Below, one piece after another: positions 21,875-27,376 of a stretch of DNA of 34,179 nucleotides. The position numbers were made by a program, and so were the translations under genes. The notes beneath the pieces are model-generated. The model ran no database searches. It was not told where the DNA came from and saw only the letters and a program-made list of their open reading frames with translations. Source of the stretch: an uncultured Lachnospiraceae bacterium (GTDB lineage: Bacteria > Bacillota > Clostridia > Lachnospirales > Lachnospiraceae); contig CACZFF010000047.1 of NCBI GenBank assembly GCA_902780385.1, positions 1 through 34,179 on the forward strand, given 5' to 3'. Every line of letters begins with the position of its first letter. Within the stretch, counting starts at the first letter, position 1.

Positions 21875-24490
21875 ATGAGAATCAATTACACAATTTTGAA
21901 GGATCTGCTGAGGAAAAGTGCTGTCATATTGATCGTACTTGCCCTGGTGCAGGTCCTTTATATTTCCGAGCAGCCGGTGATCCCGGAGACTTTGGAAGAA
22001 TATACGAAGATAAATGGTTCCAATCCGATCCGCTTTTCCGCAGACAGCGGTTTTTATGAGCAGGGCTTCTCCCTGGAAATGGAAGCGGAGGGCGTACTGC
22101 CGAAAGGCGCCCAAATCCGATATACCCTGGACGGGTCGGAACCGGGGATCCGGTCGACGCTCTATGAGGGGCCGGTCCGCCTGGAAGTGCCAGATGCCCC
22201 TGCCGGGACAGACAAAAAAAGTGTCCCGGACCAGAACACGGACGCAGAAAAGGAAACTGCAGCAGAAGCAGGAGCCGAAGACAGTCAGACAGAAAATATG
22301 CTTCAGGCAGATGAGAAGGGCATTGAGACGGAAGAGCGGGCAGAAGAGTGGACAGAAGAGCGGACAGAAGAGTGGGCAGAAGGGTGGACAGAAGCTGTCT
22401 TTGATTCAGAGGCAGACGATGACAGTGAGGAAATGGGAGAAAGTCTCTCATCCGGCGGCAGACAGGAGACGGATACAGGCGGAGCCAGCTATCTGGCAGA
22501 TAATCCGGCGGCAGGGACCAGAGTCTACACTGTGCGCGCGAAAATTATCTGCGGTGAAGAAGAGACAAGAACGCAATATGCCGTCTATGGAATCGGTACA
22601 GGTGCCCTGCCCGGAGAAGGCGAATACATTGTCTGTGTGGATACTGAAGATGCCAATCTTTATGATTATGACATCGGTATTCTGGTGGGCGGCCGGATTT
22701 TCGATGAACACAAGGGGTCGAAATACCACGGCAACTACATGGAGCGCGGGGAGGAATGGGGCAGACCCTGCCACGTAGCGATCTTTGACGGCCGGGGAAA
22801 TCTCGTGGATGACCGCAGTGCCGGTGTGTTTGTCTCCGGCGGAATGTCGCGGAGGCTGGACCAGAAATCGCTGAATCTGGCATTCGGAGAGCCCTGGTGT
22901 GATGAGGACAGCGACGGGCACCTGGGACTGGATATTTTTCCGGATCCCCTGGAGTCGGAGTATGCCCATGTCGGTTTTTACACCCACCTGAGGCTTCGGG
23001 CACGCAGCCAGATTTCACGCACATTCCGTGAAGAATTAGTCTGTGAGCTTGCCGGCAGGAGCGGAGAGCCTTCCGTTGCCGCTTCCAGATCCGGACTTGT
23101 TTTTCTGAATGGTTCTTTCTATACTCTGGCGGAACTGGAACCGACCTTCAGCAATTCCTACCTGGCCCATCGCTTTGACCTTCCCGAAACAGACTCCATT
23201 GAAAAAAAGAAGGGCAAAGAGAGCAGTGTCTTTAGTAAATTGAATGTGAGCGAGCTGTTTGCCGCAGACCTCACAGAGGAAAAAAACCGTCAGGCCCTCG
23301 AAGCGGCAGTAGACATGGATGATTATCTTCTCTACTATGCCATCAACGTCCTGGACAACAACCTGGACTGGCCGCGCAATAACGTCCAGGCCTGGCGGTA
23401 CACCGGTGAGCATGATCCGTCCAATCCCTATACGGATGGCAGGATCCGGTTTACTGTTTTCGACTCAGACAAGGCTTATAACACGGATTCCTCTCTGGAT
23501 GATAAATTCGGGACCGACAACTTTGTCTCTATGATGACAAACACAAAGCGGGGGTTTGAATCCCGTTTCCGGGATGTAATGAGGGCGGACCCTTACAGGG
23601 AACGCTTCGTGACGATTGTCTGTGATCTGATGAATACCTCCTTTGCAACAGACCATGTCCTTGAGAAAATCAAGGAATATTATGATATGCAGGAAAAAGA
23701 GTACCGGGCCTATTTTTCACCGGAATATATGAGCCTGGTCGAAGAAGATGAAAAAGCAGCGCTCAGGGCTGCCGCAGACTCCAACGATATGACGCGCCGG
23801 GATCTGGAGGAATACTTTGGACTGAAGGACCAGTATACGATGAACCTCTCAGCTTCCGATGGGGTCAATGTCCGCTGGGGCTGCATGTATCTGGCTCCAG
23901 GATCGGAATACTCCTGCCCTTATTACAAAGGTGTCAATATCACTTTTACGGCCTCACCGTCGCCGGGATGGACTTTCGATCACTGGGAGATCAACGGAGA
24001 AGTATTGGAAAGTGCCGGAGATTCTCCCATACTGACTGTCGACACAAGCCGGCTGAAGAGCGGCAGCTGCAGTGTGCGCGCAGCCGCAGTGCGGGAAAAG
24101 GGCGAAAGACTTGTCATTTCGGAGATTCAATCTGCAGGCAGCAGTGACTGGATCCGGCTCTATAATGCCGGAACGACACAGATCAATCTGGGCAGATACT
24201 GTATCTCCGATGATCCGGAAAAACCGGATAAATACCGTCTGCCTTCCGCAGCGCTTTCTCCCGGCGAATCCTGCAGAATCGATTGCAGAGCCAACAATAC
24301 AGGGGAAGCTTTGTGCTGCTGCAATTTCAACCTCTCCAGAAATGAAGTACTCTATCTCACTCCGGACGGGGAAACCGGGCTGCAGGGAGACTCGATCCGC
24401 GTCCCCTATATGAGCGAAGGATGGACTTACGGGCGCAGGGACAACGGCAGCAGCTTTTGCTGGTTTGACCGACGGGAGGATGCGCGTTAG
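21875..24490 (+). CDS. Large CotH-family surface protein with CHB_HEX_C-like and lamin-tail domains
   Basis: The 871-residue protein has an N-terminal membrane segment or signal (about 15-30). A chitobiase C-terminal-like beta domain (about 52-104) seems to continue at 213-242 and is interrupted by about 105 mostly acidic residues. The CotH kinase-like domain spans about 250-610, with GSKYHGNY, SGGMSRRLDQKSLNL, DNNLDWPRNNVQAWRY (494-509) and FTVFDSDKAYN (526-536), which hold the presumed catalytic and metal-binding Asp residues. A beta-repeat-like segment (about 655-740) and a lamin-tail domain (about 745-845) follow. CotH proteins phosphorylate surface proteins. It is translationally coupled to the cytidylyltransferase gene, one base apart. 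Confidence 0.85.
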   Translation: MRINYTILKDLLRKSAVILIVLALVQVLYISEQPVIPETLEEYTKINGSNPIRFSADSGFYEQGFSLEMEAEGVLPKGAQIRYTLDGSEPGIRSTLYEGPVRLEVPDAPAGTDKKSVPDQNTDAEKETAAEAGAEDSQTENMLQADEKGIETEERAEEWTEERTEEWAEGWTEAVFDSEADDDSEEMGESLSSGGRQETDTGGASYLADNPAAGTRVYTVRAKIICGEEETRTQYAVYGIGTGALPGEGEYIVCVDTEDANLYDYDIGILVGGRIFDEHKGSKYHGNYMERGEEWGRPCHVAIFDGRGNLVDDRSAGVFVSGGMSRRLDQKSLNLAFGEPWCDEDSDGHLGLDIFPDPLESEYAHVGFYTHLRLRARSQISRTFREELVCELAGRSGEPSVAASRSGLVFLNGSFYTLAELEPTFSNSYLAHRFDLPETDSIEKKKGKESSVFSKLNVSELFAADLTEEKNRQALEAAVDMDDYLLYYAINVLDNNLDWPRNNVQAWRYTGEHDPSNPYTDGRIRFTVFDSDKAYNTDSSLDDKFGTDNFVSMMTNTKRGFESRFRDVMRADPYRERFVTIVCDLMNTSFATDHVLEKIKEYYDMQEKEYRAYFSPEYMSLVEEDEKAALRAAADSNDMTRRDLEEYFGLKDQYTMNLSASDGVNVRWGCMYLAPGSEYSCPYYKGVNITFTASPSPGWTFDHWEINGEVLESAGDSPILTVDTSRLKSGSCSVRAAAVREKGERLVISEIQSAGSSDWIRLYNAGTTQINLGRYCISDDPEKPDKYRLPSAALSPGESCRIDCRANNTGEALCCCNFNLSRNEVLYLTPDGETGLQGDSIRVPYMSEGWTYGRRDNGSSFCWFDRREDAR
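22331..22394 (+). repeat. 12-base tandem repeat inside the CotH gene
   Basis: Five units of GAAGAG(C/T)GG(A/G)CA run from 22331 to 22390, plus a partial unit. Each encodes four residues (E-E-R/W-A/T), so copy-number change would keep the reading frame. Confidence 0.9.
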
Positions 24491-24559
24491 CAAACGCCCT
24501 GCGTTTGCGGACCTGTCGGCATGGATCATTGCGTCCCGACCGGAATTTGTTTTTTCAAC

Positions 24560-24598
24560 GTTACTTGTACACGCCCTTGATAGGATGTGTGCAGTAAC
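24560..24598. repeat. GTTAC-bounded hairpin repeat after the CotH gene
   Basis: GTTACTTGTACACGCCC pairs imperfectly with GGATGTGTGCAGTAAC. It matches the layout of the hairpin at 3965-4004. The preceding palindrome GCAAACGC-CCT-GCGTTTGC (24491-24509) may end the CotH message. Nothing else coding is seen between 24491 and 24842. Confidence 0.6.
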
Positions 24599-24635
24599 GA
24601 GCAAATTTTTGCTTTTGTTTTTTACGCTTTTTTGC

Positions 24636-24664
24636 TTGCACTGCAGTTTTTTTTATGCTAAGAT
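24636..24664 (+). promoter_or_regulatory. Promoter of the rpsF-ssb-rpsR operon
   Basis: TTGCAC (24636-24641), a 17-base spacer ending in TGC (extended -10 element) and TAAGAT (24659-24664). The leader to rpsF is about 170 bases and contains several small hairpins, e.g. CTGTTT-TGAA-AAACAG near 24775-24790. S6:S18 autoregulatory leaders are known at this place in Firmicutes, but the conserved element could not be confirmed by eye. Confidence 0.75.
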
Positions 24665-24842
24665 ATTCATCCGTGGGATTTATCCCGGAATCATTTTTCC
24701 TTGCTCCTGTGATGCGTGAAACCGGATCACTGTTTTTGCAGAACGGATTGTCCTGATCGATGCGGGACACAGATCTGTTTTGAAAAACAGAGGCTGTTTT
24801 ACGGCGGAAGCGGGGGCCAGAGACCAAAAGGAGGTAAACAGA

Positions 24843-25133
24843 ATGGGTAAATACGAGTTAGCCGTTGTTGTGAATGCGCAGATCGATGATGAAGCGAGGA
24901 CAGCGGTTGTCGACAGATGCAAAGAGCTGATCACCCGTTTCGGCGGTACAGTCGGCGAAGTCGATGACTGGGGCAAGAAGAAACTTGCTTATGAGATCCA
25001 GAAGATGAACGAAGGTTACTACTACTTCATCAAGTTCGAAGCTGAAGGCTCCGCGATCGCCGAGATCGAGAACTTCATGCGCATCATGGATAACGTCCTC
25101 AGATATCTGTGCGTAAAACAGGAAGCGGCCTGA
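24843..25133 (+). CDS. rpsF: 30S ribosomal protein S6
   Basis: The 96-residue protein matches S6, which binds S18 and 16S rRNA in the platform of the small subunit. KYELAVVVNAQIDDEAR at the start, DDWGKKKLAYEIQKMNEGYYY and IMDNVLRYLCVK are typical. AAAGGAGG precedes the ATG at 24843. ssb follows 22 bases later, the usual operon order with rpsR third. Confidence 0.97.
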   Translation: MGKYELAVVVNAQIDDEARTAVVDRCKELITRFGGTVGEVDDWGKKKLAYEIQKMNEGYYYFIKFEAEGSAIAEIENFMRIMDNVLRYLCVKQEAA

Positions 25134-25155
25134 ATAACAGAAAGAAGAGGTCATC

Positions 25156-25707
25156 ATGAATAAAGTCATACTTATGGGTCGCCTGACCAGGGATCCCGAA
25201 GTCAGATATACACAGGGAGACAGTTCTCTCTGCATCGCAAATTTCTCTGTCGCGGTGGACAGACGCTATAACCGCAACAATCAGGATGGTCAGACAGCTG
25301 ATTTTATCAACTGTGTTGCCTTCGGTAAGCTTGCGGAGCATGTCGAGAAGTACTATCGCAAAGGACTGAAGACGGCACTGACCGGCCGGATTCAGACACG
25401 CAACTATACAAACCGCGACGGCCAGAAGGTCTACGTGACCGAGGTTGTTGTGGAAGAGCTTGAGTTCGCGGAGAGCAAGAATGCATCTGCTGCAGGAAAC
25501 GGCGGCAATGCTTACGGCGGCGGCAGCTACGGCGGTTCCGGAAACGGAAATTACGGCGGCAGCAGCTATGGCGGCAATAACGGAGGAAACTACGGTAATG
25601 CCGGCAGCTACAGCGCACCTGCCCAGAACACCGCGCCTGCATCTGACGCACTGGATGGATTTATGAACATCCCTGACGGCATCGACGAGGAGCTTCCTTT
25701 CAGCTGA
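25156..25707 (+). CDS. ssb: Single-stranded DNA-binding protein
   Basis: The 183-residue protein has the OB-fold DNA-binding domain (about 1-105; NKVILMGRLTRDPEVRYTQGD, VAFGKLAEHVEKYYRKG), a Gly/Asn/Tyr-rich flexible linker (about 112-160) and the acidic protein-interaction tip DEELPFS. It coats single-stranded DNA and recruits replication and repair proteins. Start codon and spacing to rpsF are normal. Confidence 0.97.
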   Translation: MNKVILMGRLTRDPEVRYTQGDSSLCIANFSVAVDRRYNRNNQDGQTADFINCVAFGKLAEHVEKYYRKGLKTALTGRIQTRNYTNRDGQKVYVTEVVVEELEFAESKNASAAGNGGNAYGGGSYGGSGNGNYGGSSYGGNNGGNYGNAGSYSAPAQNTAPASDALDGFMNIPDGIDEELPFS

Positions 25708-25745
25708 TCGATGCGCACCCATAGGGAGTATACAGGAGGATAGAA

Positions 25746-25969
25746 ATGGCTTTTAACAGAGAGAATCGTTCGGATGCACCTTTCAGAAAGAGAGGCGGCT
25801 TCCATAGAAAGAGTACAAGGACGTCGCAAAGCTTCGCAAGTATGTCTCCGAGAGCGGCAAGATTCTTCCCAGAAGAATCACAGGCACATGCGCTACTCAC
25901 CAGAGAGCACTCACCAGTGCGATCAAGAGAGCACGCCACCTGGCTCTGATGCCTTACACCGAGCGCTGA
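25746..25969 (+). pseudogene. rpsR: 30S ribosomal protein S18 gene with internal frame-shifting deletion
   Basis: The ATG at 25746 follows GGAGG and codes MAFNRENRSDAPFRKRGG plus FHRK (22 residues), a normal S18 start. From 25814, in another frame, [20 protein letters not shown] and then [31 protein letters not shown] run to TGA at 25967-25969, a complete S18 C-terminus. The middle, usually about 14 residues with a Cys-x-x-Cys pair (VCVFCG-type), is absent; roughly 40 bases are missing, which is not a multiple of three. As written, translation from the ATG goes out of frame and ends at 25949. S18 is normally essential, so an assembly error, strain mixture or second rpsR copy elsewhere must be considered. 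Confidence 0.9.
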
Positions 25970-26048
25970 TCGCATTCGGCGGAAGACGCATAAGGTGCAC
26001 GCATAAGATGCATCAGACAGAGACAGATCAGAGTTGATCGACTTATCC

Positions 26049-26077
26049 CCCCTGCAGGCTTTATCAGTCTGCAGGGG
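26049..26077 (+). terminator. Probable terminator of the rpsF-ssb-rpsR operon
   Basis: CCCCTGCAG (26049-26057) pairs perfectly with CTGCAGGGG (26069-26077) around an 11-base loop. Only CGATTTC follows, so the T tract is weak. Confidence 0.5.
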
Positions 26078-26099
26078 CGATTTCAAAAAATATCCCTAT

Positions 26100-26182
26100 G
26101 CCGGCGTGTCGGAATGGCAGACGAGGCAGACTCAAAATCTGCTGTCCGAGAGGGCGTGTGGGTTCGAGTCCCACCGCCGGCA
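26100..26182 (+). tRNA. tRNA-Leu, anticodon CAA
   Basis: The acceptor stem GCCGGCG (26100-26106) pairs with CGCCGGC (26175-26181). The anticodon stem GCAGA/TCTGC encloses the loop CTCAAAA, giving anticodon CAA (26133-26135), which reads UUG. A long variable arm (GTCC-GAGA-GGGC) marks a class II tRNA, and the T arm is GTGGG-TTCGAGT-CCCAC. The discriminator base is A26182. The CCA end is not encoded. Confidence 0.97.
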
Positions 26183-26190
26183 CTTTTTGA

Positions 26191-26246
26191 AAGACCCGCA
26201 TAAACACCGGATTTTTGTCCTGAAAACCGGTATTTATGCGGGTCTT
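26191..26246. repeat. 20-base inverted repeat after the tRNA gene
   Basis: The arm 26191-26210 (AAGACCCGCATAAACACCGG) pairs with 26227-26246 with one mismatch, loop of 16 bases. There is no T tract after it, so it is not a classical terminator; it may stabilise or process the tRNA transcript end, or lie in the leader of the following gene. Confidence 0.6.
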
Positions 26247-26284
26247 AGGTGTTTATTTCAGCATATTCGGAAAGAAGAAAACAC

Positions 26285-27376
26285 ATGGACATCTATTTTG
26301 CGCCTCTTGAAGGTATAACAGGATTTGCCTACCGCAATGTACACAGGCAGTTTTTCGGAGACCAGATCGCCAAATACTTTTCGCCCTTTGCCGCGCCGAA
26401 TTATACACATCATTTCAAGACCAGGGATCGGGAGGATATTGAGCCTGCCAATAATGAAGGCCTGCGGCTTGTTCCGCAGATCCTGACCAACCGGGCGGAA
26501 GATTTTCTGTGGGCGGCGGAAGATATGTTTACGATGGGTTACAGGGAGATCAATCTCAATCTCGGCTGTCCCATGCCGACCGTTGTAAAAAAAGGCCGCG
26601 GCTCGGGACAGCTGGGAGATCTGGATGCGCTGGATCTCTTTCTGGAACAGATCTGCGAGGGAATGGAGAAGATCGCGGGACCGCTTGATGCAGGGGACAG
26701 GCAGACTGCAGCTCAGGAGAGAACAGACCCGGGGACAATTCAGGGGCATTTCTCTGAGAATGGCCGGGACCGGGCTGCAGAGAACTACGGTATCAATAAA
26801 GAGATCAATACAGAGGAAAAAAACCGGTTTACCGTGAAGACCCGGATCGGGCTTGAGAGTGCCTCCAGGGCGGCGGCGCTTTTGGAAATCTATAACCGCT
26901 ATCCAATCGCGGAACTGACAGTTCATCCGCGGACTCAGCGAGATCTCTACGGAGGAAAACCCGACCTGGAGACATTTTCCCTGTTCCTGCAGGAAAGTGT
27001 TCATCCGGTCATCTATAATGGTGATATTTTTTCATTATCGGATTATGAAAAAATATGCGCGCGCTTTCCGGAGTGCCGCGCTGTCATGATCGGCAGGGGG
27101 CTGATCGCGAATCCGGCACTTGCCAGAGAGCTGAAGGGCGGCGCGCCTCTGCAGATAGAGGAGCTCCGGCTGTTCCATGACGCAGTCTATGAATCCCTCA
27201 GAAAAACGCTTCCCGGACAGGCGCCTCTTCTGGGCAAGATGAAGGAACTCTGGTTTTATATGGGACGGAATTTCACCGGTGCGGACCGATGTCTGAAGGA
27301 AATCAAAAAGGCTAAAAACGAAATCCAGTACCGGGCGGCTGTGCGGACTTTATTCCTGCGGGCGTTTGGGAATTGA
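26285..27376 (+). CDS. tRNA-dihydrouridine synthase family protein
   Basis: The 363-residue FMN enzyme reduces uridines in tRNA D-loops. APLEGITGFAYRNV at the start and INLNLGCPMPTVVKKGRGS (89-107) with catalytic Cys95 are diagnostic; TVHPRTQRDLYGG and the VMIGRGLIANPAL segment bind FMN. Between about residues 134 and 181 there is a hydrophilic insertion (AGDRQTAAQERTDPG... to TEEKNR) absent from typical Dus proteins, just before FTVKTRIG. The ATG at 26285 has only a weak GGAAAGAAGA site; a GTG at 26249 is possible but adds unrelated residues. A terminator follows at 27402. Confidence 0.9.
   Translation: MDIYFAPLEGITGFAYRNVHRQFFGDQIAKYFSPFAAPNYTHHFKTRDREDIEPANNEGLRLVPQILTNRAEDFLWAAEDMFTMGYREINLNLGCPMPTVVKKGRGSGQLGDLDALDLFLEQICEGMEKIAGPLDAGDRQTAAQERTDPGTIQGHFSENGRDRAAENYGINKEINTEEKNRFTVKTRIGLESASRAAALLEIYNRYPIAELTVHPRTQRDLYGGKPDLETFSLFLQESVHPVIYNGDIFSLSDYEKICARFPECRAVMIGRGLIANPALARELKGGAPLQIEELRLFHDAVYESLRKTLPGQAPLLGKMKELWFYMGRNFTGADRCLKEIKKAKNEIQYRAAVRTLFLRAFGN

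Follow-up and report, generated by a model that had tools for sequence, protein, structure and literature searches.

A 40-base gap splitting rpsR in a Lachnospiraceae draft genome is most likely an assembly error

The gene for ribosomal protein S18, rpsR, is split in the draft genome of an uncultured Lachnospiraceae bacterium by an internal gap of 40 bases. This gap is most likely an assembly error that was closed without N, and not a real feature. In the organism itself, rpsR is very probably intact. The gene lies in the window, a stretch of 34,179 nucleotides. The window genome (3.30 Mb in 96 contigs, 92.28% complete by estimate, so that about 8% may be missing) is probably a metagenome bin, as judged from contig number, completeness and its sister drafts. 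The assembly reading is supported by a frame-breaking loss in a second core gene of the same draft, rpoC, and by assembly gaps that four sister drafts show in the corresponding part of rpoC.

The frame-0 part of rpsR starts with the ATG at 25746, which is preceded by the ribosome site AGGAGG. It comprises 22 residues of S18, followed by an out-of-frame reading to a stop ending at 25949. Alignment with the closest relatives places the absent 40 bases, which include the Cys-x-x-Cys segment, between 25813 and 25814. Since 40 is not a multiple of 3, the frame changes: The S18 sequence resumes from 25814 in the -1 frame, which begins at 25811, ends with PYTER and has its stop at 25969. The 67-residue frame-0 product has no Pfam match. 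According to the codon list, no ATG, GTG or TTG precedes the last residues of the second half, so that it cannot readily start alone. Left of the gap, 97-99 bases are identical to each of the three nearest loci (L158, L159 and L161); right of it, 57-58 of 60 bases are identical in the same loci once the 40 bases are skipped. Thus, the initial annotation, which had described a normal ribosome site and two conserved S18 ends held in different frames by a roughly 40-base deletion of the Cys-x-x-Cys segment, was correct in these points. With the bacterial rpsR of the rpsF-ssb-rpsR operon (PF01084), the window shares the gene order, the ribosome site and both protein ends, but it lacks the 40 internal bases and changes frame. 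Of what marks a functional S18 gene in this group, the place behind rpsF and ssb is retained, whereas a single open frame over the conserved domain and the C-x-x-C segment are absent.

Table 1. Features of the rpsF-ssb-rpsR region in the window.
Feature	Position	Strand	Evidence
rpsF (ribosomal protein S6), intact	24843..25133	+	PF01250, 112.6 bits
ssb, intact	25156..25707	+	PF00436, 109.5 bits
5' part of rpsR (S18 residues 1-22), correct frame	25746..25813	+	all 22 residues as in relatives (100% aa identity); 97-99 bp up to 25813 shared exactly with three other genomes
rpsR junction, 40 bases (C-x-x-C segment) absent compared with relatives	25813..25814	+	alignment; 57-58/60 right-flank fit in L158, L159, L161
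3' part of rpsR, other frame (EYKDV...PYTER)	25811..25969	+	Pfam Ribosomal_S18 profile positions 6-52, 89.8 bits
tRNA-Leu (CAA) after rpsR	26100..26183	+	same position in relatives

As stated in the initial annotation, rpsF and ssb upstream are intact, and both match their Pfam profiles (Table 1). An Rfam search over window positions 24400-26300 yielded nothing but the tRNA at gathering score, and the single match among plasmid records covers only the tRNA end of the query. The gene order of the window agrees with that of the relatives; a chimeric contig is not indicated. When the window was screened with the ORFs of 11 relative stretches, rpsR was the sole sense gene found to be split. The other splits concerned ORFs antisense to other genes, as checked against the window ORFs, and one ORF (L159, 3261-4538) whose 5' end overruns the preceding gene.

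Comparison with the closest relatives, also proposed in the initial annotation, showed one continuous rpsR frame in the relatives and, among the genus genomes in which the stretch could be read, the 40 bases absent only in that of the window. Across 62 genomes of the genus, rpsR is essentially whole and in one frame in 50, cut by a contig end in two and without a match in nine; the only split gene is that of the window genome. The two cut copies (G003 and G076) end at residues 46 and 44, and neither genome has an ssb match. Among the 11 genus genomes without a whole rpsR, ten are without an ssb match and one (G008) has an ssb match of only 42% identity; these genomes look like cases of missing stretches rather than lost genes. 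In a wider set of 80 ssb loci from GTDB genomes, S18 is found in one frame in 79, and no S18 was found at the remaining one (L096). All 79 one-frame genes carry C-x-x-C. In the initial annotation, the Cys segment had been considered variable; this does not hold for the Cys pair in this group. The Cys-less S18 of L017, whose genome belongs to a different family within the order, keeps a segment of similar length. The exact 30-base rpsR junction has no match in GTDB genomes, a collection that may omit the window's own genome.

A second core gene is broken in the same draft. In rpoC, which encodes the RNA polymerase subunit beta', 65 bases are absent from a conserved stretch after residue 954, and the frame changes (G000:C62; break at 1044-1059 of L174, minus strand). 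Residues 1-954 are found in one frame, which contains a TGA, and residues 972-1281 in another. A search of the draft revealed no further rpoC. How far apart the two flanks of the break lie was measured in 45 loci of relatives in which both flanks were readable on one contig: 43 loci counted initially, and G021 and G072 added later. The main row of G045:C88 as well as G018, G073 and G024 were left out of this count. The distance amounts to 70 bases in 41 of the 45 loci and to 67, 76 and 82 (G021) in one locus each, all in frame. In G072 it is 115 fewer than 70, with N there, and in the window genome it is 5. For a join between two species within rpoC there is no sign, as both flanks share the same closest genome by score, G074; when only a shorter portion of the right flank is compared, G045 and G055 exceed G074 in identity by 1-2 points.

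Beta' is indispensable. A true loss in rpoC is therefore irreconcilable with a growing organism, and a cell with neither S18 nor beta' could not grow. Since a second indispensable gene is broken likewise, an assembly error is by far the simplest explanation for rpsR, too. That an organism truly without both sets of bases restores the frame at two unrelated sites and thereby makes a working S18 and a working beta' is scarcely conceivable.

Assembly failures at the same rpoC stretch were found in sister drafts. Six genomes were fetched for inspection (G045, G018, G073, G072, G021 and G067), and the first four have N gaps or contig ends. G072 contains 4 N where about 120 bases belong (residues 941-982). 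In G045, 123 N stand at residues 918-932 in place of 39 bases, and a further N run precedes them. Four N runs in 3 kb and a contig end at residue 916 were found in G018, and in G073 two contigs end, at residues 933 and 944. The N runs are scaffold gaps of wrong size and not masks, because the lengths are not kept; such runs are seen in rpoC of L265 (G018:C52), L264 (G045:C88) and L263 (G072:C64). G045 has two rpoC loci (G045:C88 and G045:C45) with 83% and 79% identity to the query, which hints at a mixed bin. The contig ends within rpsR of G003 and G076 (residues 44-46) are near the window gap (residues 23-36), but not at it, and by a rough estimate about two contig ends within rpsR would be expected by chance in the genomes of the genus. 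A point against an assembly error is that neither the window nor the further 512.5 kb read from its genome contain N, which would be a direct mark of scaffolding.

The same stretches, i.e. the window and 512.5 kb of the same genome, were compared with the fetched relatives in a survey of breaks. At 98 places, some of which may be antisense or counted twice, more than 90% of a relative's ORF is covered by a match in a single frame. Only two genes are broken, rpsR and rpoC; this rarity of losses also counts against an assembly error. The remaining splits are, in our reading, 5' extensions or ORFs that run antisense to other genes; one of them (L215/L202) is antisense to two genes which we take to be ruvA and ruvB. 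In addition, a home-made codon-usage screen for frame changes was applied, an earlier version of which had been too noisy to use. This screen is blind to genes as short as rpsR. It yielded 14 junctions in 547 kb of the window genome (372 unbroken genes), 21 in G056 (489 unbroken genes) and 7 in other relatives (116 unbroken genes). Three of the 14 junctions were translated (L174, L193 and L204): One is the broken rpoC, the other two are neighbouring genes. The remaining 11, all with an ATG close to the junction, were likewise interpreted as neighbouring genes; in the other genomes, the 28 junctions were screened for starts only. Such losses are not generally widespread in the draft: There is no excess of frame changes over the other genomes.

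Why would an assembly fail in this operon? When the exact runs that the window shares with the fetched relatives are ranked by length, six of the top seven are located in rpsF-ssb-rpsR (270, 217, 206, 109, 99 and 97 bases). The three longest lie in rpsF, and those of 97-99 bases reach up to the rpsR junction. Other matched stretches of the window, excluding rpsF, rpsR and the tRNA, are about 66-93% identical. The long exact runs which the operon shares with genus genomes are a property inviting assembly failure. De Bruijn graph assemblies are described to break at DNA conserved between related strains (PMC11443906). The long conserved stretches in the window operon, the gaps and contig ends in rpoC of the sisters and the contig ends in rpsR resemble these cases. 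The passages concerned describe assemblies that are fragmented, consensus or chimeric and contain mismatches and indels, whereas a clean 40-base loss without N is an outcome that we infer. In the proposed course of events, rpsF-ssb-rpsR holds long DNA stretches identical between sister species, a short-read assembler would break or tangle at them, and a subsequent step such as scaffolding, gap closing or polishing would have joined both sides without the intervening bases and without N. By eye, no microhomology is seen at the rpsR gap in the alignment; at the rpoC gap, there are 4 bases, AGCC. A hairpin was considered as the cause of the rpsR loss and discarded: The sequences of two relatives fold no better than shuffled ones (z of -0.43 and 0.75).

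The initial annotation had named, besides an artefact, a real deletion tolerated due to a second, Cys-less rpsR. In mycobacteria, a switch between two S18 proteins involves the Cys segment, and the second of them, S18-2, is without the Cys pair. A second rpsR could be located in the unassembled part of the genome, which is estimated to be 92.28% complete, and a second, zinc-regulated S18 is documented for mycobacteria (PMC8121289). The zinc-dependent switch described there likewise concerns S18, but it uses a second complete gene, whereas in the window draft neither a second nor a complete S18 gene was found. The rest of the 96-contig draft was searched for another rpsR, as the initial annotation had suggested, and no second S18 locus was detected by the family profile, by the DNA of a relative or by protein search. 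The DNA search returned 15 weak matches (E values of 0.12 and worse, 15-43 bases) that were taken as chance. Similarly, the genus genomes that gave a match, 53 in number, show no second S18 locus; the window genome contributes two rows, which are the halves of one gene. Moreover, a second rpsR leaves the broken rpoC unexplained. A tolerated strain deletion of this type is accordingly very improbable. For comparison, Yutin et al. (2012; PMC3353972) list those r-proteins of bacteria that are absent from any of 995 genomes; in the part of the text at our disposal, S18 is not listed.

Two further readings were weighed against an assembly error. A real deletion might be present in part of the population and have been taken as consensus by the assembler. 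A draft derived from a community would represent a mixture, and the relatives are intact, as this reading expects; yet cells lacking S18 would not be expected to prevail as the majority variant, and rpoC would need the same, so that a population variant deserves very little credence. Rescue of the product in an unusual way, also raised in the initial annotation, finds no support in the sequence: The second half has no ATG, GTG or TTG start, and rpoC would need such a rescue, too. In its most explicit form, a -1 frameshift during translation would join the rpsR halves to an S18 without the Cys-x-x-Cys segment. This is mechanically possible, since the second half is in the -1 frame and frame 0 is open for 67 codons. 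However, no heptamer of the usual slippery form is visible at the junction by eye. Furthermore, relatives do not keep a split frame, but read one continuous rpsR frame in each of the 50 whole genus genes, and in rpoC a further event of this kind would be required, which there, too, would remove conserved residues. The probability of frameshifting is practically negligible.

An assembly error in rpsR also carries a caution. Even highly conserved genes of a draft genome can have short pieces missing cleanly and without N, which quality figures (here, 92% complete and 2% contaminated) do not reveal. When a core gene appears broken in a draft, it should first be compared with other core genes of the same draft.

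The DNA of rpsF (24843-25133) is 96-99.7% identical to that of the seven nearest genomes, in one of them over 136 bases only. The start of the neighbouring ssb is 78-92% identical. Genes of ribosomal operons show a median identity of 87% (G056) and 94% (G074), and in other genomes of the genus the DNA identity of rpsF goes down to about 76-84%. The high identity of rpsF possibly reflects an exchange of this gene between species or a strong constraint on its DNA.
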